From Arthrobacter silviterrae (GTDB lineage: Bacteria; Actinomycetota; Actinomycetes; Actinomycetales; Micrococcaceae), in contig NZ_JAAKZI010000012.1 in NCBI RefSeq assembly GCF_011045165.1, positions 1-64,000 of the forward strand: a DNA stretch of 64,000 nucleotides. Reading direction: 5' to 3'. The first letter of the stretch is position 1, and the number at the start of each line of letters is the position of its first letter. Under the pieces are notes generated by a model, which saw only the letters and a program-made list of their open reading frames with translations, made no database searches and had not been told where the DNA came from. This document shows, piece by piece, positions 2,067 to 20,399 of the stretch. The translations under genes and the position numbers were made by a program.

Positions 2067-2069
2067 GTC

Positions 2070-4878: not shown

Positions 4879-5862
4879 TTACCCGGCAGCCCATGCGGCC
4901 ATGCCGTCAATGGCACCGGCCGAACGCAGTTCCACGGCACGCTGCGGGGTGGCCAGCAACGTTTCACCGCCTGTCGAGACAATTTCACGCCCTCCCAGAA
5001 ATGCCACGTCGGCCAAAATCTGGTCCCAGTGCCGGTACTGCACGTCATGCCCCTCACCGCTGTAGATTCGCTCAAGCACCACGTTGCGCAGCTGCGAACC
5101 CCACCTGAGCCTGTGCTCAGCCGGCACCAGGGAGTCAGCTGTGCCCCAGTAAAGGAATGACGGCGCAACCACCGCGGACAGCTCCGGCAGCGGCGTGTTG
5201 CGGGAGAGTTCAAAAGCCTGCCGGAGGCCGTCCGGAGGCGTGTCACGGCCCCGGGCGAAGGATCCCCGCAGGGCCTCCTCGATTGCCGAATCGGCGAAGC
5301 CGGGAATCCGGTGGACGGAACTGTTCGGCGGAAACGTCCACCAGGCCACGGGGTTAGCCGCGATTTCGCCGATGTCGAACGACGGCGATGTCCCGGCCAG
5401 CGTATCGGAGAAGGCACAGGCCAGGTGCAGGGAGCGGACCCGCCCCGGTTGGGCCGCTGCCAGCCGCGCCGCATAAGGCCCGCCGCCGGAAATGGCAATG
5501 ATGGACGCCTCCCGGATGCCCAGGGAATCCAGCACGCTCCACACGTCGTCGGCATATTCGCCAAATCCCACGGCAGGGTCAAATGCCGTCCCGCCCAGTC
5601 CGTTGCGTTCCACCGATATCACCCGCACGCGCAGTTCCTCGCGCAGCGTGCGGGCAAACTCCAGCAACCCGAAGGCCCTCACGGTGGTTCCGGCACCGCC
5701 CAGGAACACCAACGGAGTCCAGTCCGGCTGCCCCTCGTCAATGTAGTTGGCAGTTCGGCCGGAGGCCACGCGAATGCTGCGCAGCCGCGGGCCCAGCGGG
5801 TCGAAGTCATTTTGCATCAGCCGCGTTGCATCCATTGCCACATCTTCCTGTCTCGACGTCAT
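4879..5862 (-). CDS. alpha/beta-fold hydrolase, last gene of the catabolic operon
   Basis: A 327-residue alpha/beta hydrolase. The oxyanion segment VFLGGAGTT lies near residue 52 and the nucleophile elbow reads AISGGGP, with Ser in place but the first glycine of GxSxG replaced by alanine. SFLYWGTADSLVP supplies the likely acid Asp and GEGHDVQYRHW the His. The start overlaps the preceding dehydrogenase stop (ATGA, 5859-5862), which fixes the start and places it in the operon. Role unknown: with no thiolase in the operon it could release an acid from a CoA thioester, or open an ester or lactone of the imported substrate. Confidence 0.8.
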   Translation of the reverse strand: MTSRQEDVAMDATRLMQNDFDPLGPRLRSIRVASGRTANYIDEGQPDWTPLVFLGGAGTTVRAFGLLEFARTLREELRVRVISVERNGLGGTAFDPAVGFGEYADDVWSVLDSLGIREASIIAISGGGPYAARLAAAQPGRVRSLHLACAFSDTLAGTSPSFDIGEIAANPVAWWTFPPNSSVHRIPGFADSAIEEALRGSFARGRDTPPDGLRQAFELSRNTPLPELSAVVAPSFLYWGTADSLVPAEHRLRWGSQLRNVVLERIYSGEGHDVQYRHWDQILADVAFLGGREIVSTGGETLLATPQRAVELRSAGAIDGMAAWAAG

Positions 5863-6719
5863 GGATAGTTGTAAAAGCCGAGGCCGCTTTTGCGGCCCAG
5901 CAACCCGCTTTCCACCATGCGCATCAGCAGGGCCGGCGGTGCCAGGTGCGGTTCCTTGAACTCCGCATACAAGGAATTGGCCACGTGCAAGGTGGTGTCA
6001 AGCCCCACCAGGTCGGTGAGGCGCAGCGGCCCCATGGGGTGGGCGCACCCCTCCACCATTCCGGTGTCGATGTCCTCAGCCGTGGCAAAGCCGGCTTCCA
6101 GCATGCGGATGGCGCTGAGCATGTACGGCACCAGCAGGGCGTTGACCACAAACCCGGCCCTGTCGGGTGCCGTGATGACCTTTTTGCCAAGGGCCGCCGT
6201 GGCATAGTCCCGGATGCGCTCAACAGCCTGGGCCGATGTGCGCAGCGACGGCACCAGCTCCACGAGCTTGAGCACGGGCACCGGGTTGAAGAAATGCATG
6301 CCCAGCACATGTTCCGGCCGGGATGTGGCCGAGGCGATCCGGCTGATGGGGATGGAGGAGGTGTTGGAGGCAAGGATCGCTTCGGGGTCCCTGACAGCGG
6401 CGTCAATCCGGCGGAAGGCCTCATCCTTGAGCCCGGGCACCTCGGGCACGGCCTCAATGACCAGCTGCCTGTCGGCGAAGGCCTCAAATTCCGTGCCCAT
6501 GCGGATCCGGGCCAGCGCGGCTGCGCGGTCCCCGGCGTCAAGCTTTCCGGAGTTCACCGCCCGCTCCAGGGACGCGGTGATCCGCGCCAGGCCCGCAGCA
6601 GCGGCGTCCGGGTTCATTTCAACCACGACGACGTCGCTGCCGGCGCGGGCGCACACCTCGGCAATTCCTGAGCCCATGAGGCCCGCACCAAGGACGCCGA
6701 CCCGTTCGATGGACGTCAT
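5859..6719 (-). CDS. 3-hydroxyacyl-CoA dehydrogenase (3-hydroxybutyryl-CoA type)
   Basis: A 286-residue single-function enzyme of the HBDH/PaaH/FadB2 size. The Rossmann motif GVLGAGLMGSGIAE is at the N-terminus, SNTSSIPI follows mid-protein, and HFFNPVPVLKLVE holds the catalytic His. The C-terminal domain (GFVVNALLVPYMLSAIRMLEAG, split here as GFVVNALLVP and YMLSAIRMLEAG) is complete. It oxidises (S)-3-hydroxyacyl-CoA to the 3-oxo form with NAD+. It overlaps its neighbours by 4 nt on both sides. L-carnitine dehydrogenases belong to the same superfamily, so substrate identity is open. Confidence 0.88.
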   Translation of the reverse strand: MTSIERVGVLGAGLMGSGIAEVCARAGSDVVVVEMNPDAAAAGLARITASLERAVNSGKLDAGDRAAALARIRMGTEFEAFADRQLVIEAVPEVPGLKDEAFRRIDAAVRDPEAILASNTSSIPISRIASATSRPEHVLGMHFFNPVPVLKLVELVPSLRTSAQAVERIRDYATAALGKKVITAPDRAGFVVNALLVPYMLSAIRMLEAGFATAEDIDTGMVEGCAHPMGPLRLTDLVGLDTTLHVANSLYAEFKEPHLAPPALLMRMVESGLLGRKSGLGFYNYP

Positions 6720-7456
6720 TGTTTTTGTCCTTCCGTCCGGTTCAAGGCCGCGTAGGCCAACTGTTCAATCAGGAGCGAGGATGCCGCGGAGGATTCCGCC
6801 GCCGCGTCGATGGCGGCCTTGGTCCAGGCCACCGCCATTGCCGGCTGCGTGGCCAGGAAGGCCGCCCGCTCGAGGGCCACGGCCAGCATCCGGGCCTGAG
6901 GAATCACTTCGCGCACCAGGCCGAGCCGGTGGGCCTCCGAGGCAGGGAACCGTTCGCCGAACAAGATGATCTCCCGGGCCAGCGCCGGCCCCACGGCGCG
7001 GACCAGCCGGGTCAACCCTCCGGAGCTGGGCAGGATGCCCAGCCCCACCTCGGGCAGCCCAAACTGGGCAGTATCGGCAGCCACCCGGATGTCGCAGGCC
7101 AGGGCCAGCTCGAAGCCGGCGCCCAGGCAGTAGCCCGACACGGCGGCGATGGTGGGCTGCGGAAGCCGGGACACGACGTCGTACACGGAACCGCTGCCCC
7201 GGTAGTAGGCGGCAATCCTGTCGGGGGTCATCTCTGGCAGCTCGGAGGTGTCCGCGCCGGCGGAGAAGGCCCGCTCGGACCCGGTGAAGACGATGGCGCG
7301 GGCAGCCTGGACCTGGGGAGTGTGGAGGGCGTCCAGCAGGGCCTGTTCCAGCCCTGTGGACAGCGCGTTCAGCTTGGCCGGGCGGTTGAGCTGCAGGACC
7401 ACGGACGTGCCGTGCTCCTGCAACCCAACCAGCGGCGCGGGGTCAGGTGAGGTCAC
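6716..7456 (-). CDS. enoyl-CoA hydratase/isomerase family protein
   Basis: A 246-residue crotonase-fold protein. RAFSAGADTSEL gives the first oxyanion-hole segment and GYCLGAGFELALACDI the second. Both glutamates expected for hydratases are present, in FELALACDI and GLPEVGLGILPSSGG, which favours water addition to a 2-enoyl-CoA over a purely isomerising role. Start and stop overlap the adjacent genes by 4 nt (7453-7456 and 6716-6719). In the operon it should act between the acyl-CoA dehydrogenase and the 3-hydroxyacyl-CoA dehydrogenase. Confidence 0.87.
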   Translation of the reverse strand: MTSPDPAPLVGLQEHGTSVVLQLNRPAKLNALSTGLEQALLDALHTPQVQAARAIVFTGSERAFSAGADTSELPEMTPDRIAAYYRGSGSVYDVVSRLPQPTIAAVSGYCLGAGFELALACDIRVAADTAQFGLPEVGLGILPSSGGLTRLVRAVGPALAREIILFGERFPASEAHRLGLVREVIPQARMLAVALERAAFLATQPAMAVAWTKAAIDAAAESSAASSLLIEQLAYAALNRTEGQKQ

Positions 7457-8625
7457 TGCGCGACGGCCCCGGCGTACCCGAGCAGGCCCTCGGCGCCGCG
7501 CTTGCTGATCTCATTGCCAATGATGACCGTCTGGATCTCCGAGGTGCCCTCCCAAATGCGGTCCACGCGCAGTTCGCGCCACAGCCGCTCCACGGGGTTT
7601 TCGCGCATGTAGCCGCGGCCGCCAAAGATTTGCAGGGCATTGTCCACACAGCGGTTGGACGCCTCGGACGCACCAAGCTTGATGACAGCCGCCTTGGCGT
7701 TGAGCAGCTTTCGGTCCATGCCCTGATCCGCTTCCCAGGCCACCTGGTAGGTCAGGACGCGGTTGGTCATGATGTCCACAGTGTTTTGGGCCAGCATGCG
7801 CTGGATCAGCTGGAAGTCCAGGATGGGCTTGCCGAACTGCACGCGCTCCTTTGCGTAGTCGGCGGCCAGCAGGGTGGCGCGCTCGGCGGCACCGATGGTG
7901 CGTGCGGCGATCATGAGCCGCTCCTCGACAAACCAGTCACGGGTGAGTTCGTAGCCTTGGCCAATCTCGCCCAGGATCTTGTCCGCACCGACCCGCACAT
8001 CCTCAAAGAGGAATTCTGGGTGCTCGTATACAAAGGTGTGGGTGTAGCGCGGGGTGCGCTTGACCGAAACACCGGGGAGGTCCTTGTCGACCAGGAACAT
8101 GGTGGGCGCACCGTCCACGCTGGCCAGCAGCAGGATGAAGTCGGCGGCATCGCCCACGGTGACGAAGAGTTTCTCGCCATTGATGATGTAGGAGTCACCG
8201 TCCCTGACCGCGGTGGTCTGGATGTTCTGCGGATCCGAACCTGCCTCCGGCTCCGTGATGGCGACAGCATCGCGCCGTTCACCATTGATCTCCGGTATCA
8301 GGAATTCCTCGCGCTGGGCCGGGGTGCAGGCCTTGAGGGCGTTGGCGGGGCGCCACATGGTGTCCCACAGGGCGCCGGTCAGCTTGCCCACTTCTTCCGA
8401 GACAATGGCATGTTCCAGGGTGTTGAGCCCTGCGCCGCCCCATTCAGCGGGCATGTTGATGGCGGCCAGTCCGTGGTTCTTGATGAGCTGCTTGACTTTT
8501 TCGTGCTGTTCGGCGGAAAGGCCGTTGTTCATTTCGCAGTCAAGCTCGTACTGCTTCATTTCCTCGGTCCAGGCGATGGCGCGCTGCTTGAGTTCGATCT
8601 GGCGGGGTGTGAACCGGAAGTCCAT
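7453..8625 (-). CDS. acyl-CoA dehydrogenase
   Basis: A 390-residue FAD enzyme, standard length for the family. It begins MDFRFTPRQIELKQRA; the frame is open further upstream, but that extension is unlike the family, so the ATG at 8625 is chosen. AITEPEAGSDPQNIQTTAV is the substrate/FAD loop, FGKPILDFQLIQ a conserved middle block, and IWEGTSEIQ near the C-terminus carries the expected catalytic Glu. It introduces the alpha,beta double bond into an acyl-CoA; no electron-transfer flavoprotein is encoded here. A 49-nt gap from the upstream synthetase is the only real gap in the operon. Confidence 0.9.
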   Translation of the reverse strand: MDFRFTPRQIELKQRAIAWTEEMKQYELDCEMNNGLSAEQHEKVKQLIKNHGLAAINMPAEWGGAGLNTLEHAIVSEEVGKLTGALWDTMWRPANALKACTPAQREEFLIPEINGERRDAVAITEPEAGSDPQNIQTTAVRDGDSYIINGEKLFVTVGDAADFILLLASVDGAPTMFLVDKDLPGVSVKRTPRYTHTFVYEHPEFLFEDVRVGADKILGEIGQGYELTRDWFVEERLMIAARTIGAAERATLLAADYAKERVQFGKPILDFQLIQRMLAQNTVDIMTNRVLTYQVAWEADQGMDRKLLNAKAAVIKLGASEASNRCVDNALQIFGGRGYMRENPVERLWRELRVDRIWEGTSEIQTVIIGNEISKRGAEGLLGYAGAVAQ

Positions 8626-8674
8626 GGTGGTCTGCTTTCTTGGGGTTTGGGGAAACGGTTGAGTGGGGAAGGCG

Positions 8675-10774
8675 TTAGTCGAGGACGATTCGGGCGTCCA
8701 GGGCAATGGCCCGCCCGGGCAGTGCGGCAACGGGGTTGCATTCGATTTCACTGATTTCGGGGTGTTCAGCGGCCAGCACAGACAGCCTGGCAACAATCTC
8801 GGCCGCCGCATCGAGGTCGACAGGCGCCCTGCCGCGTGCACCGGTCAGCAGGGCTGCGCCGCGCAGCGAAAGCAGCAGCCGGCGCGCCTCCTCAGGGGTG
8901 ACAGGGCCCAGGGCACACCGCACATCGCGGAGGACTTCGGCAAACACGCCGCCCAGGCCCACCAGCACAATCGGTCCAAAGCGGGGGTCGCGGCGCACCC
9001 CGACAAGGAGTTCCACGGCTCCGGACAGCTGGGCCATTTCCTCCAGCGAGCACGACGGCGGCGCCAGCCGGGCCTGAACATCGTCCCAGGCAGCTTCCAG
9101 GGCCGACGCGTCTGCGATGCCCAGCACCACGCCGCCGCGGTCGCTCTTGTGCTCATCGCCGAGCGCCTTGAGCACCAGCGGGTAGTTCAGCCCGCGGGCC
9201 GCCGACAGGAGTTCGTCCCGCGTTGCCACTTCGGCGGCCGCGACGAAGGGGATTCCAGCGCCGGCCAGCAGCCGGCGTGAAGGGTAGTAGCCGGCATCGG
9301 TGACGGGCTCGGCGGGTGCGGGGAGCACTGGCACGCCGGTGGCCGGCTCCGCATGGCGCCGGGCCAGCCGGCCCAGCGCCCAGGCGGCTTCCTCGATGCC
9401 GCGGTAGACGGGAACGCCGCCGCCTCGCAAAGCGTCCGCCGCGGCCGACTCCCAGTTCATGGTCTGCACCACCACGGTGCCACCGCGTGCTGCCGTCGAG
9501 GCGGCCATGGCGTGGGCCGCCTCGATCTCCTTTTGGGCCAGCTCGGGCCCGTAGGAGCCGTAGCCGCCAAAGTAGCCGCTCATCAAGGTGGCATCCACGG
9601 CGTTACTGGCCGTAAGGCGGTCCAGGACCCGGGCGAAGCACATGATGTCCTGCTCACCGCCGCCGGCCACGTCCACCGGGTTGCTGACTGCGGCGGTGGG
9701 TGGCAGTTCGGCAGCCACGGCGGCCTGCAGTTCCGCGGGAAATTCCATGACGTCCAGCCCCTGCGCCGCGGCACTGTCGCTGGCCACCGAGGCCTGTCCG
9801 CCGCCGTCGGCGAACACCGCGGTCCGGGAGCCGGCCGGCACCCTGCTGCGCACCAGGGCCTGCAGCAGGTGGGCCATCTGGGCCGGTGAGGCGACCTGTT
9901 CGATCCCCGCGGCCCGGCAGGCAGCATCCACAACGATGCCGGAGGACACCATGGCACCAGTGTGGGACTTGGCGTTGCGCACCGAGGCGTCCGTGGCGCC
10001 CACAGTCAGCAGGACCACCGGCTTCCCCGCGGCGGCTGCCTTGGCCGCGGCGCGGGCAAAGCGGCGGCCGTCCCGGAAGTCCTCGCAGTAGACGGCGATG
10101 GCGGCCGTGCCGGCGTGTCCGGCATAGGCCTCGATCAGGTCGGCGGCGTCCAGGTCGGCCTGGTTGCCCAGGCTGGCAAAGCGCGACACGCCCAGGCCGT
10201 GGTCCACCAAGAGGGTGCACAGCTCCAGGGCAAGGTTTCCGCTTTGGGAAATGACGCCAATGTTGCCCACCGGGAATTCGTTGGAGGCCAGCGTCAACCC
10301 CGAGGTGTGGTCCAGCACGCCGAGGCAGTTGGGGCCCAGCATGCGTGCGCCGGCGGCCTGCACCTTGGCGGCGACCCGGCGCTCCAGTTCCAGCCCCTCG
10401 CCTCCGGCTTCGCCCAGGCCGGCGCTAATGCCGACAATTGCCTTGGCCCCGGCCGCGAGCGCATCGTCCACCGCGGCCTCAAACCCTGCCGCGGGAACCG
10501 CGATGACGGCCAGTTCCACGGGACTACCGACGGCGGTCACGCTGGGCACAGTGGGCAGCCCCAGCACGGTGCTGCGGGTCCTGTTGACCAGGTGGACGGG
10601 GCGGGTGCCCTTCAGTGCCTGCACGGCAATCCAGTTGCCGTATTTTCGGGTGTCGTCACTGGCACCCACAATGGCCACGGCGTTCGGTGAAAACAGCGCA
10701 TCCAGGCCGGATGCCGGGTGGTTGCCGTCCGTTCCGGTGCGGGCCGGGGCTGCGTTGTCAATGATGCTCGTCAT
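8675..10774 (-). CDS. acyl-CoA synthetase, NDP-forming (ATP-grasp type)
   Basis: A 699-residue single-chain acetate--CoA ligase (ADP-forming) family protein. In order it has an N-terminal CoA-binding Rossmann domain (AIVGASDDTRKYGNWIA), a SucD-like ligase domain with the phospho-histidine motif KSHTGAMVSS near residue 272, and a C-terminal ATP-grasp domain (YPLVLKALGDEHKSDRGGV). It would activate a carboxylic acid to its CoA thioester using ATP. The ATG at 10774 shares one base with the upstream stop (TGATG), so it is preferred over an in-frame ATG 39 nt earlier. This is the likely entry step after import; the substrate acid is not known. Confidence 0.88.
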   Translation of the reverse strand: MTSIIDNAAPARTGTDGNHPASGLDALFSPNAVAIVGASDDTRKYGNWIAVQALKGTRPVHLVNRTRSTVLGLPTVPSVTAVGSPVELAVIAVPAAGFEAAVDDALAAGAKAIVGISAGLGEAGGEGLELERRVAAKVQAAGARMLGPNCLGVLDHTSGLTLASNEFPVGNIGVISQSGNLALELCTLLVDHGLGVSRFASLGNQADLDAADLIEAYAGHAGTAAIAVYCEDFRDGRRFARAAAKAAAAGKPVVLLTVGATDASVRNAKSHTGAMVSSGIVVDAACRAAGIEQVASPAQMAHLLQALVRSRVPAGSRTAVFADGGGQASVASDSAAAQGLDVMEFPAELQAAVAAELPPTAAVSNPVDVAGGGEQDIMCFARVLDRLTASNAVDATLMSGYFGGYGSYGPELAQKEIEAAHAMAASTAARGGTVVVQTMNWESAAADALRGGGVPVYRGIEEAAWALGRLARRHAEPATGVPVLPAPAEPVTDAGYYPSRRLLAGAGIPFVAAAEVATRDELLSAARGLNYPLVLKALGDEHKSDRGGVVLGIADASALEAAWDDVQARLAPPSCSLEEMAQLSGAVELLVGVRRDPRFGPIVLVGLGGVFAEVLRDVRCALGPVTPEEARRLLLSLRGAALLTGARGRAPVDLDAAAEIVARLSVLAAEHPEISEIECNPVAALPGRAIALDARIVLD

Positions 10775-11598
10775 CAGGGCTCCTTCGTGGGAACGGGACG
10801 GCCGGAGCCCCAAGCGTTGGCTCCGCCGTCAATGTCAATGGTGGTTCCGGTGATGTACCGGGCCGCGTCCGTGGCCAGGAAGGCAATGACACCGGAAACG
10901 TCCTCGGGGCGGCCCAGGCGGCCCAACGGCACTCCCTGCTCCCACCCCCGCCGGGCTTCTTCCGTGTACTGGTCCAGGCCTTCGCTTTCGATGCTGCCCG
11001 GTGCCACGGCAACGGAGCGGATGCCGTAACGGCTCCACTCCAGGGCCAGCCCGGAGGCCAGGTTTTCGACGGCGGCGCGGGCCGCCGTGGCATGCACCAT
11101 GCCCGGAATGCCGCGGTGAGGAGAGAATGCCATGAAGACCAGCAGTCCGGAGCGGTTGGGGATCATGCTGCGCACGGCCACCTCGCGGGTAAGATTCCAG
11201 ACGGCCTCCACGGAAAGCCGGTGGACGGCGCGCCAACCGTTGAGGCTGATGTCTTCCGCCGGAGCCTGGAACTGGCCGCCGGCGTTGTTGACAAGCACGT
11301 CGACGCGCCCGAACTCCGACACCGCACGGTCCACCAGTTCCACCACATGGTCAGCGTCCCGGATGTCCCCGGCAACCGTGATGGCTTCAGAGCCTGCCGC
11401 CCGGACCAGTTCGGCCGTTTCCTGGAGCAGTTCCGCCCGGCGGCCGGCGAGGACCAGCCTTGCCCCCGAGCGCGCCATGGACAGGGCCGTGGCACGGCCT
11501 ATGCCTGTGCCGCCGCCGGTCACCAGGGCAACCTTGCCGGCCAGGGCTTCGGGATGGAGGCTCGGTGCCGGCGCACCGCCGTCGAACCCGCCGCTCAC
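10774..11598 (-). CDS. PECR-like SDR oxidoreductase without the Tyr-x-x-x-Lys pair
   Basis: A 274-residue short-chain dehydrogenase fold. The cofactor motif TGGGTGIG is at 27-34 and VNNAGGQF near 103-110. Where classical SDRs have YxxxK this protein has HATAAR (169-174), so Tyr is replaced by Ala and Lys by Arg. The same pattern, together with NNAGGQF and LALEW, is typical of peroxisomal trans-2-enoyl-CoA reductase (PECR) and related dienoyl-CoA reductases. It may therefore reduce an enoyl- or dienoyl-CoA with NADPH. It overlaps the ATPase gene by 4 nt and the synthetase gene by 1 nt. Confidence 0.82.
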   Translation of the reverse strand: MSGGFDGGAPAPSLHPEALAGKVALVTGGGTGIGRATALSMARSGARLVLAGRRAELLQETAELVRAAGSEAITVAGDIRDADHVVELVDRAVSEFGRVDVLVNNAGGQFQAPAEDISLNGWRAVHRLSVEAVWNLTREVAVRSMIPNRSGLLVFMAFSPHRGIPGMVHATAARAAVENLASGLALEWSRYGIRSVAVAPGSIESEGLDQYTEEARRGWEQGVPLGRLGRPEDVSGVIAFLATDAARYITGTTIDIDGGANAWGSGRPVPTKEP

Positions 11599-13400
11599 AG
11601 CGCCACGCCGTTCGGTTCCGCGGCGTAAACCTGGCTGGGCAGCTGGAAGTTTGGCGTGGCCGACATCAGCGAACGGGTGTAGTCATGCTGCGGGTTGTCA
11701 AAAATGTCCGCGACGTCACCAAACTCCACAATCCGCCCCCGCTCCAGGACCGCCACCTGCTGGGCGATGTTGCGCACCAGGGCAATGTTGTGGGTGATGA
11801 ACAACAGCGTCAAGCCCATTTCGGCCTGCAGTCCCCGCAGCAGGTCCACCAGGGACGACTGCACGGAAACGTCCAGGGCCGAGGTGATCTCGTCGCAGAT
11901 CAGGACCTCCGGTTCGGTCGCCAGCGCCCTGGCGATGGCCACACGCTGGCGCTCGCCGCCGCTGAGCTGGTCCGGGTACCGGCGGGCATGGTCCGGCCGC
12001 AGGGAGGCACGTTCCAGCGCCGTTGCCACAATGTCGCGGGAGTTCTTCACCTTTCCGCGCACGGCCAGGACAGGCTGGAGGATCAGTTCCTCCACGGTGC
12101 GCCGCGGGTTGAGGGACTCATAGGGGTTTTGGAAGATGTACTGGACGCGGCGGCGCTGCTCCCTGGTTCGCTTGAAGCTGCTGGTGGCCAGCGGTTCGCC
12201 GGAGAGCTCCAGGCCCCCCGTGAAGTTGTGGTGCAGGCCCGCAATGCAGCGGCTCAGCGTTGTCTTGCCGGAACCGGATTCGCCCAGCAAGGCCACGCAG
12301 TCCCCGGAATAGACGGACAGGTTGATGTCTTCCAGGACAGTGAACTTGCCGTAGCCCGCCTTCAGTCCGCTGATGTCGATGACCGGCTTGTCCCCGTCGG
12401 TGCGCACCGACCGCTGCCGTTGCGGCCGGGCGTGTGCCGGCGGCAGGGGCGTCCCAGCCTTGAAGCAGCGCACGCTGTGCCCTTCCCCCACATCCGTGGC
12501 CTCCGGGGGTGACACCTTGCAGCCGCTGTCGGCGATGGGGCAGCGGGGCGCGAAGGCGCAGCCCTGCGGCCGTGCCATGGGCGACGGCGCGTTCCCCGGG
12601 ATGCCGACCATGGGCCGGACGGCGTCCAGGTCCGGCACTGCGAGCAGCAGCCGGCTGGTATAGGGGTGTGAGGGGTGGTCCAGGACGTCCGCCGTCCGGC
12701 CGATCTCCACGATCCGCCCGGAATACATGACGGCGATGCGGTCCGCCAGCTCTGCCACCACGGCCATGTCGTGGCTGATGTACACGGCTGCACAGTCATA
12801 GGTCTTGCACATCTCCCGCACGGTGTGCAGGACGTGTTCCTGGGTGCTGACATCCAGGCCCGTGGTGGGTTCGTCCATGACAATCAGTGCGGGTCGCGCC
12901 GTGAATGCCATGGCGATGGCCACGCGCTGCTGCTGCCCGCCGGAAAGCTGGTGCGGGTACCTCGACAGGAATTCATCGTCATCCGGCAGTGCCACCTCCC
13001 GCAGCACCTCCCGCACCCGGCCAAGGACGGCGGCGGGGTCTCCCGGAAGGCATTCGCGCAGCTGGGTGCCAACCCGCAGGGCCGGGTTCAGGGCCGACGC
13101 CGGCGACTGGGGAATGTAGGCCACCGTGCGTCCGCGCAGTTCCCGCACCTGGCGCCAGTTCAGGGCTGCCAGGTCATGGTCGTGGATGCTGACGCTCCCG
13201 CCGTCGACCTTGGTGCCTTCCTTGCAGTAGTTGAGCAGGGACAGGCCCAGGGTGGTCTTGCCGGAGCCGGACTCGCCGACCACGCCCAGGATTTCCCCCG
13301 GGTGAACCTCGAGGGTGAGCTGGTCAATGATGCTGGCCATGGAGGGGACGCCGACGATCCTGAGGGCGTCCACCACGAGTGTTGGTGAGGCGGTGCTCAT
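11595..13400 (-). CDS. ABC importer ATPase, fused DppD-DppF type
   Basis: A 601-residue protein with two complete ABC ATPase domains in one chain. Each has a Walker [10 protein letters not shown], a signature (LSGGQQQR in the first, LSGGERQR in the second) and a Walker B ([12 protein letters not shown] and [12 protein letters not shown]). After the first domain is the oligopeptide-transporter C-terminal extension with the cysteine motif [15 protein letters not shown]. It powers the permeases encoded just upstream (DppB/DppC type). Coupled to both neighbours by 4-nt overlaps. Confidence 0.92.
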
Positions 13401-14296
13401 GCTTCCACTCCTTCATCGCTGCCGATGGCGGCCTTGGCCAGGCCGTCGGTGACCAGGTTGGTGCCTACCGTCAGCAGCGCGATGGCGATGACGGGCAGGG
13501 CCACCGACCAGGGCGAAATTGTCAGTGCAATTCGGTTTTCATTGATCATCAGCCCCCAGTCGGGACTGGGCGGCTGCATTCCCAGGCCCAGGAAGCTGAG
13601 CCCGGCGACCAGGCCGATCGAGTAGGTCAGGCGCAGGCCGAATTCAACGGCAAGCGTGCTGCTGAGGTTGGGCACGATCTCCCCGACGATGATTTTCCAG
13701 CGCGGGATGCCCACTGATTCGGCGGCCTTGACGAAGTCGCGTTCGACAACCGACATGGCCGCACCGCGAACCACCCGGGCCACACGGGGCAGGTGACCCA
13801 GGGCCACCATGAGCACCAGCAGCCACAGCTTGGGGCCGATGATGGACAGGAACAGCAGGGCCAGCACAATCTGCGGAAAGGCCAGCGCCACGTCGCCGGT
13901 GCGCATCAGTGCCTCGTCCACCCAGCCGCGGCTGTACGCGGCGAATACGCCCACCAGCGCGCCGAGCCCCACGCCAATCCCCGTGGCAAGCACGGAGAGG
14001 ATCATCAGGGTTTGGCCGCCGGCCAGGAAGCGGGACAGGACATCGCGGCCAAGGTTGTCGGTGCCGAAGGGGCCTCCGATGCCGGCTGGGGAGAAGGGCG
14101 CGCCCACGAACTCCGTGGGTGAATGGGGCGCCACATACGGGCCCAGGAAGGCGATGGCGAAGATGAGGACGCTCAGGATGGCGCCAATCACTGTCCGCCT
14201 GGACTTCAGAGCCCGCCGGAGCAGCCCCTTCTTGCGCGGCGCCCGCACACGGATTCCGGCTCCCGGCCCGGCGGGCTTGGTGGCGACGGTGCTCAT
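13397..14296 (-). CDS. ABC importer permease, DppC type
   Basis: A 299-residue inner-membrane permease. The N-terminal positively charged tail (RAPRKKGLLRRALKSRRT) is followed by a first membrane helix, the periplasmic GTDNLGRDVLSRFLAGG block typical of DppC/OppC, and the BPD_transp_1 domain ending with the EAA-like loop (KAAESVGIPRWKIIVGEI) that contacts the ATPases. It pairs with the DppB-type permease upstream. Start and stop overlap adjacent genes by 4 nt. Confidence 0.91.
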   Translation of the reverse strand: MSTVATKPAGPGAGIRVRAPRKKGLLRRALKSRRTVIGAILSVLIFAIAFLGPYVAPHSPTEFVGAPFSPAGIGGPFGTDNLGRDVLSRFLAGGQTLMILSVLATGIGVGLGALVGVFAAYSRGWVDEALMRTGDVALAFPQIVLALLFLSIIGPKLWLLVLMVALGHLPRVARVVRGAAMSVVERDFVKAAESVGIPRWKIIVGEIVPNLSSTLAVEFGLRLTYSIGLVAGLSFLGLGMQPPSPDWGLMINENRIALTISPWSVALPVIAIALLTVGTNLVTDGLAKAAIGSDEGVEA

Positions 14297-15267
14297 TGTG
14301 CGGTCCTTACTTTCGGGTTGACGGCCAGCGTCACGACGTCGGCCAGCAGGTTCACGATGACGTAGAAGAGGGCGATGATGATGACCAGCGCCTGGATGAC
14401 GGGAAGGTCCCTGTTGGTTACGGAGTCGATGAGTTCAAAGCCGATCCCGGGGAAGCGGAACAGGTACTCCACGATCACCACGCCGCCGATCAGCCATGCC
14501 AGCTGGAGGGCGATGACCTGTGCCACGGGGCCGATCGCGTTGGGGATGGCGTGCCTCCAGATGACGGTGCGCTCGGGCAGGCCTTTCAAGCGGGCCTGCT
14601 GGACGTACTGGCTGTCCAGGACCTCCAGCATGGTGGCCCGCATGATCCGGATGATGTAGGGGGATACCGCCAGCACCAGGGTGAGGACGGGAAGCGCCAG
14701 CTGGTCCGGGTGGCTCCAGACGTGCTCGCCGGGTATCTGGACGAACACAGCCGGGAACAGGTGCAGCAGCCCGGTGGAAAGGAGCAGGACCAGCAGCACA
14801 CCGACCACAAATTCCGGCAGGGAGGCCATCACGAGTGTGACCACCCCCGTCACATGGTCCATGGCCGTGTCCTTCTTAAGGGCGCTCCAGGTTCCGATGA
14901 CAATGGCCAGGGGGATGGCAATGACGGCGGAGGCGAACATCAGGACGGTGGAATTGAGCACCATGGGGCCAATGGTGTCCAGGACAGGGTTGCCGCTGGC
15001 GAGCGATGAGCCCATGTTGAAGGTGACCACATGGCCCAGCCAGCTGAAGTACTGTTCGGGCAGTGAACCGCCCAGGTGGAGCTGTGCGCGCAGTGCCGCC
15101 AGCCGCTCCGGGGTGGCCTCGCGGCCCAGGATCGCCTGGGCCGCGTCACCTGGGAGTGCCTGGGTGGCGAGGAAAACCACGATGGAGACAACCCAGAGGG
15201 TGAACAGGCCGAACAGCGAGCGCCTGAACAACATCCGGCTCATGCCGCCCCCGCCCTTTCGGCTCAT
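14293..15267 (-). CDS. ABC importer permease, DppB type
   Basis: A 324-residue permease of the DppB/OppB branch: an N-terminal helix (LFGLFTLWVVSIVVFLATQ), the LPGDAAQAILGREATPE periplasmic motif and the EAA-like loop QQARLKGLPERTVIWRHAI. The ATG at 15267 forms an ATGA overlap with the binding-protein stop and is preferred over an in-frame ATG 12 nt upstream; a third ATG 24 nt downstream is also possible. With the DppC-type partner it forms the channel of a peptide/opine/nickel-family importer. Confidence 0.9.
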   Translation of the reverse strand: MSRKGGGGMSRMLFRRSLFGLFTLWVVSIVVFLATQALPGDAAQAILGREATPERLAALRAQLHLGGSLPEQYFSWLGHVVTFNMGSSLASGNPVLDTIGPMVLNSTVLMFASAVIAIPLAIVIGTWSALKKDTAMDHVTGVVTLVMASLPEFVVGVLLVLLLSTGLLHLFPAVFVQIPGEHVWSHPDQLALPVLTLVLAVSPYIIRIMRATMLEVLDSQYVQQARLKGLPERTVIWRHAIPNAIGPVAQVIALQLAWLIGGVVIVEYLFRFPGIGFELIDSVTNRDLPVIQALVIIIALFYVIVNLLADVVTLAVNPKVRTAQ

Positions 15268-16829
15268 TTGTTCATCCAAACGCTCCGGAACCCAAATGAC
15301 GTGAGCGGGATGCCGCTCTTGTCGGGGCTGAATCCCTGGACAGTCGAGGAGTAGGCGTCGACGCTGTTGGGGAAGCCCCAGATAATGTAGCCGCCGTCGT
15401 TGTATTCAATTTGCTGGGCCTGCTGAATGAGCGCGCAGCGGGCTGTCATGTCGACGGTGGCGCTGGCCTTGTTCACCAGCGCGGACCAGTCCTTGTTGTC
15501 CCAATGCGTTTCGTTGTAAGGGGAATCGGTGAAGCCTGATGCGGCCGTCTGAGGCAGGAAGTCGCGGGTGAACCAGAAGTCTTGCGAAAAGGTCCACTTG
15601 AGGTACTTGTCACCGTAGAACTCGCCGGGGTCCACCTTTTTCACGTTGACCGTGACACCGGCGGCCTTGGCCTGCTGGGCGAACACCTGTGCCGCCTCCA
15701 CCATTCCGGCAGCCGCTGAGGAGGTCACCAGGTCCACGCTCATGTTCGACTTGCCAGCCTCGGCGAGCAACTGCTTGGCCTTGGCGATGTCCTGCGTGCG
15801 CTGTGGAATGCTCTTGTCGAAGCAGGTGTCAAAGGGGGCGTACAGGTCGTTTCCGACAGTTCCGTGGCCACCCAGCACCTGCTCCACCATCTGCTTGCGG
15901 TCCACGATCAGCCTGAAAGCCTGGCGCACCTTGGGATCGTTGAATGGCGGCTGGTCCACGCGCATGGTGAACGGCACCCAGGAGCCCGTTGCTGATTCAA
16001 GCACCTTCAGGGCCGGATTGGCCTTGACGATGTTGATCTGGCCCAGGGGCAGCTGGTCGATGGCGTCCACCTGCCCGCCCAGCAGGGCGTTGACCCGGGC
16101 GGTGTCATCGGGGAAGTCGATGATGGTGACGGCGGCCAGGTGGGGCTCGCCCTTGCGCCAATAGTTCGGGTTCTTGACAAAGGTGCTCTGCTGCCCCGCG
16201 GTGAAGTCCTTCATCATGAACGGGCCTGAACTGACGGGATTCTTGGGGTCATAGCCCACCGGGACAATGCCGGTGCTGTACTGGGCCACGTTGTCGGGGA
16301 ACGTTGCAAACGGCGTCTTGAAGGGGAAAACGATGGTTTGGGCATCCAAGGCCTTCAGGCCGTCCCGGTTCAGGGTGGACAGTGCGCTGGCCCCGGCCAT
16401 GGGGGCCTTTGGATCGGTAATGCGCTTGAACGTAAAGATGACGTCATCAGCCGTGATCGGCTTGTTGTTGCTGAACTTCAATCCGTCACGGAGATGGACG
16501 GTCCACGTCTTCGCGTCGGCAGACGGTGTAATCTTGTCCGCCAGCGCCATCTCCACCTTGTGGTTAACGTCGTAGGTGGCAAGCGTTTCATACAGCTGGA
16601 TGACGCGGGCCTCATCCGGGTGCGTCACGGGTGAGTGGGCGTCCAGGGAGTCCTTGGCGGACCCGCCCACAATGCCGACTCGCAAGGTACCGCCGTCCTT
16701 CGGGGCGGAATTGACGTCGGCGGTTGACGTGCCGGGGGCGGATGAACAGCCGGCCAGGCCTATCATCGCGGCCGCCAAAAGCGTGGCTGTAACGGTGCGT
16801 AAAGTCTTGGGGCGCCGGGGAGCGGTCAT
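15264..16829 (-). CDS. ABC importer substrate-binding lipoprotein (family 5)
   Basis: A 521-residue extracytoplasmic solute-binding protein. A lipoprotein signal peptide ends in the lipobox LAGC (MTAPRRPKTLRTVTATLL start). The mature part has the family-5 features GTLRVGIVGG, YETLATYDVNH and a long two-lobed body ending FGFRSVWMNK. The ATG at 16829 lies 9 nt after an AGGAG element; a TTG 18 nt upstream is in frame but lacks its own site. This is the first gene of the ten-gene operon and defines its substrate. Family 5 binds peptides, opines, sugars and other solutes, so the ligand cannot be named. Confidence 0.9.
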   Translation of the reverse strand: MTAPRRPKTLRTVTATLLAAAMIGLAGCSSAPGTSTADVNSAPKDGGTLRVGIVGGSAKDSLDAHSPVTHPDEARVIQLYETLATYDVNHKVEMALADKITPSADAKTWTVHLRDGLKFSNNKPITADDVIFTFKRITDPKAPMAGASALSTLNRDGLKALDAQTIVFPFKTPFATFPDNVAQYSTGIVPVGYDPKNPVSSGPFMMKDFTAGQQSTFVKNPNYWRKGEPHLAAVTIIDFPDDTARVNALLGGQVDAIDQLPLGQINIVKANPALKVLESATGSWVPFTMRVDQPPFNDPKVRQAFRLIVDRKQMVEQVLGGHGTVGNDLYAPFDTCFDKSIPQRTQDIAKAKQLLAEAGKSNMSVDLVTSSAAAGMVEAAQVFAQQAKAAGVTVNVKKVDPGEFYGDKYLKWTFSQDFWFTRDFLPQTAASGFTDSPYNETHWDNKDWSALVNKASATVDMTARCALIQQAQQIEYNDGGYIIWGFPNSVDAYSSTVQGFSPDKSGIPLTSFGFRSVWMNK

Positions 16830-16880
16830 AGCATTTGACTCCTGCAACAGTGGAGGAAAATCCGGGCTTCGTCGCGTCTG

Positions 16881-16894
16881 ACTGACGCGTCGAT
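16881..16894. promoter_or_regulatory. candidate TetR operator, operon-proximal copy
   Basis: ACTGACGCGTCGAT, preceded by GTCTG. The 16-mer GTCTGACTGAYGCGTC occurs here (16876-16891) and again at 17001-17016. This copy lies downstream of the predicted operon promoter at 16904-16932, where a bound repressor would stop transcription. Confidence 0.6.
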
Positions 16895-16903
16895 CATTTA
16901 GCC

Positions 16904-16932
16904 AGCATTGTGGTTCCCGTCACAGATGTCAA
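16904..16932 (-). promoter_or_regulatory. predicted promoter of the catabolic operon
   Basis: On the minus strand a perfect TTGACA (16932-16927) is followed after 17 nt by AATGCT (16909-16904), which keeps A2 and T6. Transcription would start near 16897, about 70 nt before the binding-protein ATG and next to the 16881 operator. Confidence 0.5.
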
Positions 16933-17005
16933 GACTTTGCTGAATTATGGCGAATTTTCGACGAATCCCGGCAAATTCCACCCAGTGGAACCAAAATCAA
17001 GTCTG

Positions 17006-17019
17006 ACTGATGCGTCAGT
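17006..17019. promoter_or_regulatory. candidate TetR operator, regulator-proximal copy
   Basis: ACTGATGCGTCAGT has perfect 5-bp outer arms (ACTGA/TCAGT) and repeats the motif at 16881. It lies about 60 nt before the tetR start, so the regulator probably controls itself as well as the divergent operon. Confidence 0.62.
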
Positions 17020-17076
17020 TTGACAAATAGGCTAGAGTCATTTCATCGAAGCATCCGCCGCGCTGAAGGATCTCCC

Positions 17077-17727
17077 ATGACTGAAGCAACTGAAGGCCGG
17101 GGCAAGCCGGACCGCCGCAACGCGATCCTTGAGGCCGCATGGCCGCTCATCGCCGAACGCGGCTACCACCATGTCCGGGTCCAGGACATTGCAGCGATCT
17201 GCGGCACCAGCACGGGGACCATCCACTACTACTTCCCCGGCAAGGACGACGTGCTGCAGGAGGCCTTGCGGTACTGCGTGGACCAGGCCTTCATCCGGCA
17301 GGGCGAGGCGCTGCGGCAGATTGAGAACGCGCGCAAGCGCCTGCTGGCCCTGATCGAAATGCAGCTCCCGGCGGGCGTGCAGGTTCGCAATGAATGGTCC
17401 ATCTGGCTGCAGTTCTGGACCGAGACGTGCTTGAACCCGGAACTGCGTGCCCTCCACAACGACTTCTATGAGCGCTGGCTGGACGCCGTGGTCCGCACCG
17501 TCCGGCGCGGCCAGCGGCAGGGGATTTTCCGGGACACCGATCCGGTGGTCTTTGCCCGCCTGCTGACCTCCGCCACGGACGGGGCCGCCATCAAGATCCT
17601 GACGGGCGCCCCCAACATGAGTGTCGACTCCATGCGCCAAATGCTGGTCAACATCATCGACACCCACCTGAGCCTGCTGCCCGACGGCGGCACCCGGGCC
17701 GAAGCCGCCGTCGCCGGCAGGGCCTAA
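17077..17727 (+). CDS. TetR-family regulator of the divergent catabolic operon
   Basis: A 216-residue TetR regulator. The N-terminal helix-turn-helix is clear (VRVQDIAAICGTSTGTIHYYF, spanning roughly residues 31-51) and the C-terminal ligand domain resembles the BetI-like group (WSIWLQFWTETCLNPELR). The ATG at 17077 follows a GAAGGA element. It is divergent from the ten-gene operon and two matching operators lie between them, so local repression relieved by an acyl-CoA or the substrate is the simplest model. The NUDIX gene follows after 8 nt and is cotranscribed. Confidence 0.9.
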   Translation: MTEATEGRGKPDRRNAILEAAWPLIAERGYHHVRVQDIAAICGTSTGTIHYYFPGKDDVLQEALRYCVDQAFIRQGEALRQIENARKRLLALIEMQLPAGVQVRNEWSIWLQFWTETCLNPELRALHNDFYERWLDAVVRTVRRGQRQGIFRDTDPVVFARLLTSATDGAAIKILTGAPNMSVDSMRQMLVNIIDTHLSLLPDGGTRAEAAVAGRA

Positions 17728-17735
17728 GGAGCACC

Positions 17736-18374
17736 ATGCCTGTCAACACTGTCCGCCCGGAGCCGGATTCCCTGCAGGAACTTGCTGATGGCATTGCGTC
17801 CCGCCTCGCAGGCTGGCAGCGGCACGGCGAGCCCGAGTTCGAAGGAATCCGTCGCGCTGCAGTGGCCATCACCCTCTATGAAAAGGAAGGGCAGCCGCAC
17901 TTCCTGATGATCAAGCGCACCGCGCGCGGGTCCAATCCGGGCCAGTGGGCACTTCCCGGCGGCAAGGCCGACCCCGGGGAATCCATAACGGAAACGGCAC
18001 TGCGGGAACTCGAGGAAGAGACTGGGCTGCAGGCCGGCCCGGTGGACGTCCTTGGGGTGCTGGACGACTTCAACGCATCGCGGGGAATTGTGATCACCCC
18101 CATTGTGGTCCTGTTGCGCGGCCCCCAGAAGCCCCGCCGCAATCCGGCAGAGGTGGCTTCACTTCACCCCGTACCGCTGGCGCGGCTGCAGGCGCCGGGC
18201 GTGCCCCGCTGGAAGGAGACGGACCACGGCCCGCTCCTGCAAATGCCGCTGCGCCATGACATGGTGGTCCATGCCCCCACCGGCGCCATTTTGTGGCAAT
18301 TTGCCTCGGTTGCCCTCGAGGGCGGCACTGTCCGCGTCAATGCCACTTTGGAACCGGCCTTCACGGCCAGCTGA
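17736..18374 (+). CDS. NUDIX hydrolase
   Basis: A 212-residue NUDIX protein. The box is complete: GGKADPGESITETALREL followed by EEETGL, about residues 72-94, with the REL-EE metal-binding glutamates. Its length and the N-terminal helix (SLQELADGIASRLAGW) resemble CoA pyrophosphatases, though the distinguishing UPF0035 motif is not obvious. Cotranscription with the TetR regulator (8-nt gap; the AAGGAG site overlaps the tetR stop) and the CoA-thioester operon next door suggest hydrolysis of CoA or acyl-CoA derivatives; that substrate is an inference. Confidence 0.85.
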   Translation: MPVNTVRPEPDSLQELADGIASRLAGWQRHGEPEFEGIRRAAVAITLYEKEGQPHFLMIKRTARGSNPGQWALPGGKADPGESITETALRELEEETGLQAGPVDVLGVLDDFNASRGIVITPIVVLLRGPQKPRRNPAEVASLHPVPLARLQAPGVPRWKETDHGPLLQMPLRHDMVVHAPTGAILWQFASVALEGGTVRVNATLEPAFTAS

Positions 18375-18413: not shown

Positions 18414-18530
18414 GGGTGCGGCAACCCTCCCCGGCACGCGGGCGGGCGTAGGCTGGACTTCCCTGAAAAGACATCGATTCACTGCGCCGTTGAAGAGGTG
18501 CAGTTGAAGTTGGGCAGTCAACGTAACTCC

Positions 18531-20399
18531 ATGGCAGACGCACATACCAGCAAAGACAATTCCACCCTTTTCACTTCCCTGGGCCGCCTGGCGCCACAAT
18601 TGAAGCCGATCATCTGGCCACTCATCTGGGGCCTGCTGTCCGCACTGGCGGCCAGCGTGGTGGCGCTTGTCGTCCCCCAGGTCTACCGGGTGCTGGTCAA
18701 CACAGCCCTGCAACCGGGCAACGGGACGAAGGGGCTGTGGACGGGTGCCGCCGTCGTGCTTGGCCTGGGCATTCTGGAAGCCGGGCTCATCGCGCTGCGG
18801 CGGCAGTTTGTCATTGTCCCCGCCACCACCGTGGAAACCCGGATGCGCACGTCCTTCTACCGCCACCTGCAGTCGCTCGCGGTGGAATTCCACGACCGCT
18901 GGGGCTCCGGCCAGCTCCTCAGCCGCGCCATGAGCGACCTGAATTTCATGCGACGCTGGATGGCATTCGGGGCCATCATGCTGGTGGTGACCACCCTGAC
19001 CGTGGTGATTGGCGTGTCGCTTATGTTTTCCATGAGTTGGCAGCTGGGCCTGATTTTCCTCGCCGCGGCCGTGCCCATCGCCATATTCGGCTTTAGGTTC
19101 CGGCTGTCCTACGGCCGCGTCAGCCGCAAGAGCCAGGACCAGGCCGGCGACCTCGCCACCGCCGTGGAGGAATCCGTCCACGGCATCCGCGTGCTGAAGG
19201 CATTTGGACGGGGGCCGGAGGCGCTGGACTCCTTTGCCGGGCAGGCGCAGGAGCTCCAGGCCACTGAAATCCACAAGGCCAAGTCGCTCGCCGTGTTCTC
19301 GCTGGTCGTCACGCTGCTGCCCGAGCTGGCGCTGGGCTCGGGTCTGGTGGACGGCATCCTGCTGGTTTCCGCCGGAAAGCTCGACGTCGGCGCACTGGTC
19401 GCGTTCTTCGCCACGGCCGCCGTGGTGGCCGGGCCGGTGGAATCCATGGGGCCGCTCATGGCGATGACCCTGACCGCCAAGACCGCGATCGACAGGCATT
19501 TTGAGGTCATGGACGCCGTCAACACCGTCACCGATCCGGCCTCACCCGTCGCGCTGGACTCCGCGCGCGGCGAGCTGGAGTTCCGCGGCGTCCACTTCCG
19601 CTACCCGGACACCCCCGCAGCGACAAGGGACGTGCTGGACGGCATCAACCTCACGCTGCGGGCCGGTGAGACCATGGCGCTGGTGGGCGTCACCGGCTGC
19701 GGCAAAAGCACGCTGCTCAGCCTGGTTCCGCGCCTGTTTGACGTCACGGCCGGCACCCTGATGCTCGACGGCGTCGACGTCCGCCAGCTGACGCTTTCGG
19801 CGCTGCGCACCCATGTGGCCGTGGCCTTCGAGGACACCACCTTGTTCTCCAACTCCGTGCGCGACAACGTGTTGCTGGGCGCCGCCGAACAGCCGGGGCT
19901 CTCCCCCGAGGACGTCCTGGAGCAGGCCCTGGAAGTGGCGCAGGCAAGCTTTGCCTACACGCTCCCGCAAGGTGTGGACACGCTCATCGGTGAGGAAGGC
20001 CTGAGCCTGTCGGGCGGCCAGCGGCAGCGCATCGCGCTGGCCCGGGCCATCGCCGCCCGCCCCGCGGTGCTGGTGCTGGATGATCCCCTCTCTGCCCTCG
20101 ACGTCAACACGGAGGAGCGCGTCACCGAACGGCTGCGCTCCGTGCTGGAGAGCACCACCACGCTCATCGTGGCCCACCGCCCGTCCACCGTGTCCCTGGC
20201 GGACAGGGTGGCGCTGCTGCAGGACGGGCGGATCACCGCCGTCGGCACGCACAGCGAACTCCTCGCAGCCAACAGCCACTACCGCTACGTGCTGGCCAGC
20301 CTCACCGAGGAGCCGCGGGACCTCGACAGCCACCTGGAAACCGGGCTCGGCGAGGAACTGGCCGAAGAACTGGGCGCAGGAAAGGAAGCGGGCGCATGA
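18531..20399 (+). CDS. heterodimeric ABC exporter subunit with degenerate ATPase site
   Basis: A membrane-fused ABC half-transporter of about 622 residues: six transmembrane helices (about 30-320) then the nucleotide-binding domain. Walker A is GVTGCGKST, signature LSGGQRQR, and Walker B reads [12 protein letters not shown] with Asp where the catalytic Glu should be. That replacement marks the degenerate site of heterodimeric exporters such as TM287/288 or BmrCD. The start is uncertain: ATG 18531 is chosen, but an in-frame GTG at 18498 is possible and neither has a good ribosome site. It overlaps the partner gene by 4 nt. Likely exports a drug, lipid or peptide. Confidence 0.87.

Follow-up and report, generated by a model that had tools for sequence, protein, structure and literature searches.

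A conserved ten-gene operon of Arthrobacter silviterrae couples a family-5 ABC importer to CoA-dependent enzymes and may serve the catabolism of a betaine-type carboxylic acid

Our analysis of a 64,000-nucleotide stretch of the Arthrobacter silviterrae genome (contig NZ_JAAKZI010000012.1, positions 1 to 64,000; hereafter the window) reveals that ten genes on its minus strand, at 4879-16829, form a real, conserved catabolic operon, in which a family-5 ATP-binding cassette (ABC) importer is joined to enzymes of coenzyme A (CoA)-dependent degradation. The best explanation of the operon, held tentatively and at slightly less than an even chance, is that it imports a betaine-type (onium) carboxylic acid and breaks it down by a CoA-dependent route, with the substrate class read from genomic context. 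Five elements were computed directly: the gene content, the conserved gene order, the replacement transporter of a relative, a palindrome beside the regulator gene, and family traits of the reductase and the ligase.

The ten reading frames are intact, run in one direction, and were identified with Pfam and NCBIfam. The first encodes a family-5 solute-binding lipoprotein (SBP_bac_5; 15264..16829; PF00496, 295 bits). It is followed by genes for permease B (14293..15267; PF00528, PF19300), permease C (13397..14296; PF00528, PF12911), a fused D+F ATPase with two ABC_tran and two oligo_HPY stretches (11595..13400; PF00005, PF08352), a short-chain dehydrogenase/reductase (SDR) of the PECR/DECR (enoyl-/dienoyl-CoA reductase) type (10774..11598; typed from its nearest solved structures and its motif), a nucleoside-diphosphate (NDP)-forming acyl-CoA ligase (8675..10774; PF13380, PF13607, PF13549), an acyl-CoA dehydrogenase (7453..8625; PF00441, PF02770, PF02771), a crotonase (enoyl-CoA hydratase/isomerase; 6716..7456; PF00378, 190 bits), a 3-hydroxyacyl-CoA dehydrogenase (HAD) of the 3-hydroxybutyryl-CoA dehydrogenase subfamily (5859..6719; NF005875, 453.6 bits, cut-off 319), and an alpha/beta-hydrolase, possibly a thioesterase or esterase (4879..5862; PF00561, 43 bits). 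Genes, order, and coordinates are as a first-pass annotation had described them, and its description of nearly all junctions as 1-4 nt overlaps holds for eight of nine: seven are 4-nt overlaps, one (SDR/ligase) is a 1-nt overlap, and one (ligase/dehydrogenase) is a 49-nt gap. The first junction would instead be a 20-nt gap if permease B begins at 15243, a start that is more likely than 15267 because several models align only from residue 13. The operon lacks the thiolase of a complete beta-oxidation operon, as had been noticed; eight thiolases score over cut-off elsewhere in the genome, so that this absence is unremarkable.

Gene order was compared with that of relatives, as had been suggested as a check. 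A scan of species genomes yielded 36 loci, every record title being actinobacterial. Genes of the relatives were called with a simple codon-usage script and their proteins then clustered; several neighbour names were first assigned by eye, and the names relied on afterwards were scanned against families. Loci L020 and L021, being duplicates of L059 and L031, are excluded from counts, L022 and L037 are one genome (so that the palindrome set below comprises 28 distinct regions and the ligase-signature set 48 distinct rows), and several Rhodococcus rows are near-copies of each other. Nine of the 36 loci contain importer and enzymes; two contain relatives of both importer and ligase at ~50% identity (L060, L065); 16 contain the enzyme core without an ABC importer; one (L038) has a BCCT transporter in the importer's place; five have an amino-acid-type module; and three are otherwise arranged. 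Because nine of the 36 keep the importer genes joined to the enzymes, the gene order is not chance. In particular, five of these nine (L031, L032, L033, L036, L059) have all ten genes together with the TetR and NUDIX genes, L035 and L037 lack the HAD gene, L039 lacks both HAD and a hydrolase relative, and L034 begins within the ATPase gene and retains only a fragment of the hydratase gene. In a distant genome of the phylum (L078), TetR and the first eight genes are retained, and the binding protein is 57-58% identical to that of the window. Ligase relatives at 84-92% identity are present in 3 of 98 related genomes, all three among 22 congeners, and ligase matches at E 1e-130 or better are present in 7 of 396 genomes of the phylum, the window's own included.

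In the 16 importer-free core loci, the SDR, ligase, dehydrogenase, and hydratase genes face TetR wherever the contig extends far enough (it is truncated in L050 and L054), and the gene after the hydratase belongs to an MFS cluster in nine loci and to an NCS1 cluster in six, with a seventh NCS1 gene in L052 (one member of each cluster was identified by family search). The MFS transporter matches a cation-transporter model, though other models score higher. SDR, NDP-forming ligase, acyl-CoA dehydrogenase, and hydratase are thus a recurring actinobacterial core, with a transporter that varies (family-5 ABC, MFS, NCS1, or BCCT). One cluster of homocysteine S-methyltransferase proteins is shared by four loci (L043, L049, L053, L066), apparently of one metagenome-assembled genome (MAG) lineage. 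The literature search, made up mostly of titles and the starts of abstracts, contained no described orthologue of the operon.

The strongest evidence that the window importer may carry a betaine-type solute is the transporter swap in L038, from Nocardioides. The gene order there is TetR, divergent BCCT, SDR, ligase, dehydrogenase, hydratase, and HAD, and identities to the window are 66% (SDR), 73% (ligase), 80% (dehydrogenase), 70% (hydratase), and 68% (HAD). The BCCT in the slot between TetR and SDR reaches 507 bits with the BCCT family model (cut-off 408) and 573 with the glycine-betaine model (cut-off 650); a second BCCT (533 bits) lies beyond NUDIX. In the tree of ligases, nine ABC-importer rows are the sister group of L038, which falls among such rows (100/99 and 97/89), with the ABC-importer row L039 and L045, which has neither importer, just outside its group. 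Because L038 is nested among ABC-importer rows, the BCCT most simply replaced an ABC importer. The window importer itself belongs to family 5 (peptide/nickel/opine), with an SBP_bac_5 protein, two BPD_transp_1 permeases, and ATPases with oligo_HPY. Its binding protein scores under the NikA, GsiB, and OppA equivalog cut-offs, a Foldseek search with its AF2 model (mean pLDDT 74) gives generic members of family 5, and an opine binder (6hlx) and peptide binders are among its solved relatives.

The divergent genes that had been reported are both present on the plus strand: a TetR regulator (TetR_C_6, 'BetI-type'; 17077..17727; PF00440, PF13977), with 30 clustered relatives in the examined loci, paralogues included, and, 8 nt beyond it, a NUDIX hydrolase (17736..18374; PF00293; 15 clustered relatives). 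Between TetR and the divergent operon is a palindrome, ACTGAYGCRTCAGT, first noticed in part of the regions and likely the TetR operator. Of 29 TetR-divergent regions, 24 have a site with no more than one mismatch (the exceptions are L022, L037, L038, L039, and L042), and sites at 0, 1, and 2 mismatches number 22, 16, and 13, versus 0.0, 0.02, and 0.18 in shuffles (first-order Markov resampling). For whole loci, sites with at most one mismatch are present in 27 of 51, versus none of 40 control stretches (800 kb). One exact copy, ACTGATGCGTCAGT (17006..17019), lies in the window and is the only exact site in the genome; a second window copy, with two mismatches, is on the binding-protein side (16881..16894), and both are likely operators. 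The palindrome also precedes the TetR-Rieske-ligase operon of L079 (exact match); in L077 it stands ahead of the importer operon, in L024 ahead of the ligase gene, and in L078 ahead of the binding-protein gene. Since the same palindrome recurs in importer and amino-acid-type variants and in one Rieske variant or more, one switch would govern them, and this common switch suggests a related inducer. A wider regulon in the window's own genome was considered and set aside: the palindrome with up to two mismatches is present at 18 places, versus 39 for a reversed-pattern control.

The ligase has the CoA-binding, Succ_CoA_lig, and ATP-grasp domains and the phospho-His of the NDP-forming acyl-CoA synthetase superfamily, with the phospho-His loop SHTG (H271) and a signature, GYFGGY, at residues 400-405. 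The general form of the signature, G[YF][FL]G[GCS]Y, is present in 48 of 49 ligase-family rows and in none of ten paralogues at ~31% identity. The exception is the second ligase of L079, where one operon (L079:5022-11147) contains two NDP-forming ligases, only one of them with the GYFGGY signature. The closest solved proteins are the ADP-forming 3-hydroxypropionate--CoA and 4-hydroxybutyrate--CoA ligases 9y43 and 8wzu, followed by 7cm9; the window ligase is nevertheless far below the NCBIfam cut-off for such ligases (294 and 281, cut-off 1300).

The SDR has its nearest solved structures in 3imf, human PECR (1yxm), AtuG (6lln), and DECR1. In place of YxxxK, which we take to be the classical catalytic motif of SDRs, it has VHATAAR, and in all 34 aligned rows the position of the catalytic Tyr is His, never Tyr, with Arg (28) or Lys (6) at the last place. 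The nearest structures and the motif agree with an enoyl-/dienoyl-CoA reductase, a correction to the earlier label of PECR-like reductase, and the NCBIfam scores do not decide, being level with those for gluconate 5-dehydrogenase: specifically, the 2,4-dienoyl-CoA reductase equivalog (PRK07677) gives 191.9 against its cut-off of 318. With no catalytic Tyr in this SDR, and with enoyl-/dienoyl-CoA reductases closest to it among solved structures, plain beta-oxidation is doubtful as the function of the operon, although the SDR evidence does not settle the matter. Of the earlier prediction of uptake, activation, and beta-oxidation of one acid, uptake, CoA activation, and oxidation are supported by the conserved order and the common operator, and plain beta-oxidation may not account for the operon. 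In the acyl-CoA dehydrogenase, the Glu of the WEGTSEIQ motif, presumably the usual catalytic Glu, is kept. The crotonase, read by eye, has Glu at both of what we assume to be the usual catalytic positions. The alpha/beta-hydrolase has one weak solved relative.

Some variant clusters around the ligase contain onium or amino-acid markers. Relatives of BCCT, BKACE, carnitine dehydrogenase, and Rieske proteins are absent from all 40 control stretches. A Rieske protein, with domains confirmed by scan, is present in four of 46 ligase loci (L064, L075, L076, L079), and that of L075 has a carnitine monooxygenase as its best solved match (1e-42). L060 (L060:19-11197, from a Nocardioidaceae MAG) contains importer genes, an NDP-forming ligase, a dehydrogenase, and CaiD-like (261 bits), BKACE, carnitine-dehydrogenase-like (326 bits), and 4HBT thioesterase genes; the two scores are under the equivalog cut-offs, and the cluster is likely a butyrobetaine/carnitine pathway with an NDP-forming ligase. 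An ELFV amino-acid dehydrogenase gene is present in ten of 46 loci (controls 0 of 40) and a 5-guanidino-2-oxopentanoate decarboxylase gene in nine (controls 2 of 40). In L077, ligase and SDR relatives lie beside an SBP_bac_8-type importer and an ELFV gene, together with this decarboxylase (530 bits, cut-off 500) and an aldehyde dehydrogenase that has aminobutyraldehyde dehydrogenase as its nearest model (400, cut-off 615); the clearly best model of the L077 SDR is 2,4-dienoyl-CoA reductase (302.5, cut-off 318; next model 241). SBP_bac_8-type ('PotD') binding proteins are present in L075 and L077, and the one in L064 matched SBP_bac_1 only; the 'PotD' label presumably implies a polyamine link. 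Plasmid relatives at 39-52% identity number six records, of which four contexts were inspected: in Streptomyces cadmiisoli the ligase, SDR, guanidino-oxopentanoate decarboxylase, and dehydrogenase genes lie with ELFV and N-methyltryptophan oxidase genes, in Sinorhizobium garamanticum a BKACE-type gene adjoins the ligase, and in Rhizobium gallicum and Mesorhizobium amorphae amino-acid-type ABC importers are near it. The genome of L079 also contains an importer relative without a ligase beside it (L117:4159-15194), with a sulfatase that has a choline-sulfatase C-terminal domain (46.9 bits, cut-off 27), large hydrolases, and an N-methyltryptophan/sarcosine-oxidase-type gene (206, cut-off 257) as neighbours. 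A FadH/TMADH-like gene (L025, L065, L079, L116) is ambiguous and is also present in one of four loci of the 31% ligase paralogues.

From this context we infer the substrate class, the reactions and their order, the binding of TetR to the palindrome and its release, and the loss of an amine. In the favoured scheme, the family-5 importer would take in a betaine-type carboxylic acid, with a quaternary ammonium or other onium group at its far end; the ADP-forming ligase would convert it with ATP to the CoA ester, which the acyl-CoA dehydrogenase would then desaturate; the SDR, acting as a dienoyl-/enoyl-CoA reductase, the hydratase, and the HAD would lead to a 3-ketoacyl-CoA; and a general thiolase of the cell would cleave it. 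Bound at the two operators, TetR would repress its own gene and the operon, and the substrate or its CoA ester would lift the repression. Because a dehydrogenase followed by a dienoyl-/enoyl-CoA reductase is odd in plain beta-oxidation, a C5 acid with an onium leaving group at the delta position would make sense. We therefore put forward, as a possibility on the unlikely side, a pathway that degrades delta-valerobetaine (5-trimethylammoniovalerate), comprising a GYFGGY onium-acid ligase family, loss of trimethylamine, a dienoyl-CoA-reducing SDR, and a single type of TetR switch common to the importer, trimethyllysine-type, and Rieske variants of actinobacteria. In the desaturated C5 ester, the vinylogous position would let trimethylamine leave to give 2,4-pentadienoyl-CoA, the type of substrate of such an SDR; reduction, isomerisation or hydration, oxidation, and thiolysis would follow as in ordinary C5 beta-oxidation. 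Trimethyllysine, the matching C6 amino acid, would give delta-valerobetaine through a module like that of L077. Clostridial 5-aminovalerate fermentation passes through 5-hydroxyvaleryl-CoA and 2,4-pentadienoyl-CoA, and by analogy the proposed route would likewise desaturate the ester, expel a delta leaving group vinylogously, and reduce the dienoyl-CoA; unlike the clostridial case, the organism is an actinobacterium and the leaving group would be trimethylamine.

The chief rival, a fairly unlikely one, is gamma-butyrobetaine, from which ligase, dehydrogenase, hydratase, and HAD would form crotonobetainyl-, carnitinyl-, and 3-dehydrocarnitinyl-CoA, with thiolysis to betainyl-CoA and release of glycine betaine by the alpha/beta-hydrolase. 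The BCCT in the importer slot of L038 and the other transporters fit this acid as well as they fit delta-valerobetaine, and the four L060 genes beside a related ligase and importer, and the nearness of the L075 Rieske protein to carnitine monooxygenase, point to it. The Cai pathways for carnitine and gamma-butyrobetaine use a CoA ester, an acyl-CoA dehydrogenase, a hydratase, and a 3-hydroxy oxidation, a plan that the window operon resembles; unlike them, it has an NDP-forming ligase, a PECR/DECR-type SDR, and a family-5 ABC importer. The conserved SDR would be left without a clear job in a gamma-butyrobetaine route, the window dehydrogenase reaches only 182 bits against the CaiA model (cut-off 540), and CaiD is not among the best 25 of 73 models for the window hydratase. 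A single query of the window's own genome with the L060 protein found no close L-carnitine dehydrogenase (best match 33% identity, E 5.6e-25), and the sole BKACE of that genome (L112:6599-12722) is beside two CoA-transferase subunit genes, a thiolase-like gene, and an MFS transporter gene, apparently as another keto-acid pathway. An unmethylated cationic acid (5-aminovalerate, 4-guanidinobutyrate, or 5-guanidinovalerate) is a distinctly less probable substrate: the clusters with decarboxylase, ELFV dehydrogenase, and aminobutyraldehyde-dehydrogenase-like genes suggest one, whereas the BCCT and Rieske genes indicate methylated onium groups and the amino-acid-type clusters have no family-5 importer beside the ligase.

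A C3 onium acid, dimethylsulfoniopropionate (DMSP) or beta-alanine betaine, is very improbable. A DddX-like ligase would both activate such an acid and cleave it, yielding acryloyl-CoA, which the SDR would take to propionyl-CoA or the hydratase to 3-hydroxypropionyl-CoA. DddX (7cm9, the third closest solved protein) is an ATP-dependent DMSP lyase, according to its published description (PMC8163506), and like the window ligase it is of the NDP-forming superfamily with a phospho-His loop; the same paper describes DddX genes occurring with BCCT genes, a context resembling L038, and production of dimethyl sulfide by some actinobacteria without known genes. The paper also names W391 (W/Y) and F435 as cation-pi contacts of the onium group and E432 as the base. 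In a profile alignment that is uncertain in the loop, the window ligase has Ala370, Lys415, and Leu412 in the columns of W391, F435, and E432 and is therefore not a DddX; unlike DddX, it has the GYFGGY signature and a downstream dehydrogenase and hydratase and a reductase gene, and for a C3 acid the conserved acyl-CoA dehydrogenase would have little work. An aromatic-rich segment near the position of the DddX substrate loop could hold an onium group. Finally, the substrate might be an ordinary acid (short, branched, or unsaturated), an opine, or an acyl-amino acid, with the betaine links belonging to other members of the ligase family; we consider this improbable, to about the same degree as gamma-butyrobetaine. 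The core loci with MFS (9 of 36) and NCS1 (7 of 36) genes lack any onium marker, and the opine and peptide binders among the solved relatives of the binding protein also favour it; against it, the transporter of the closest non-ABC relative is a BCCT, and the palindrome is also present at one Rieske cluster and four cationic-amino-acid-type clusters. Among the substrates offered by the first-pass annotation, a carnitine- or butyrobetaine-like acid is thus favoured by the L038 BCCT, the L060 genes, and the Rieske genes of four loci, and an opine or acyl-amino acid has only generic binding-protein similarity behind it.

Several observations weigh against a betaine-type substrate. The solved relatives of the binding protein include none with an onium ligand, and the DddX onium-binding residues are missing from the window ligase. 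The BCCT swap rests on one genome, whose ligase frame (L038:10001-12024, Nocardioides turkmenicus) is interrupted near the C-terminus in this assembly, perhaps through misassembly or gene decay, and whose palindrome has two mismatches; L045, with neither importer, branches beside it. Most core loci without an ABC importer carry MFS (9) or NCS1 (6) transporters, HAD is absent from three of nine importer loci, and only six of 46 ligase loci contain BCCT, Rieske, carnitine dehydrogenase, or BKACE genes, from a marker list that was chosen after viewing the loci, so that these comparisons are descriptive rather than blind. The palindrome was defined from the very regions in which it was counted, with only the controls independent; at up to one mismatch it is absent from Rieske loci L064, L075, and L076 (one of four Rieske loci has one), from six of ten amino-acid-type loci (four have one), and from L060. 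The NCBIfam scores of the window SDR are level and below cut-off (gluconate 5-dehydrogenase 192.2, 2,4-dienoyl-CoA reductase 191.9), and a Rhodococcus SDR leans slightly to gluconate 5-dehydrogenase (196 versus 187).

The surroundings of the operon are partly shared with A. wenxiniae (L059). A tautomerase gene (137 aa; minus strand, 4240-4653; PF14552, 104 bits) lies 226 nt past the operon, a related gene is at the same position in L059, and it is a possible eleventh operon gene. Further downstream on the minus strand (123-4042) are genes for a thiamine pyrophosphate (TPP) enzyme, a Cgl0159-like protein, and a PfkB kinase, which we take to resemble inositol catabolism genes (IolD, IolC) and which are also beside the operon in L059. 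Next to NUDIX on the plus strand (18498-22234) are two overlapping ABC genes of exporter type, in which membrane and ATPase domains are fused, with relatives at the same place in L059.

Carnitine, gamma-butyrobetaine, and trimethyllysine are widespread compounds. A literature search, mainly of titles and the starts of abstracts, found no bacterial breakdown route for delta-valerobetaine, which one paper describes as an obesogen formed by gut bacteria from trimethyllysine (PMC11773067). If true, the delta-valerobetaine proposal would mean bacterial degradation of a microbiome-made carnitine mimic and a new family of ADP-forming onium-acid ligases carrying GYFGGY. A ligase family with a recognisable signature, together with the operator, would make such pathways findable in genomes and directly testable.

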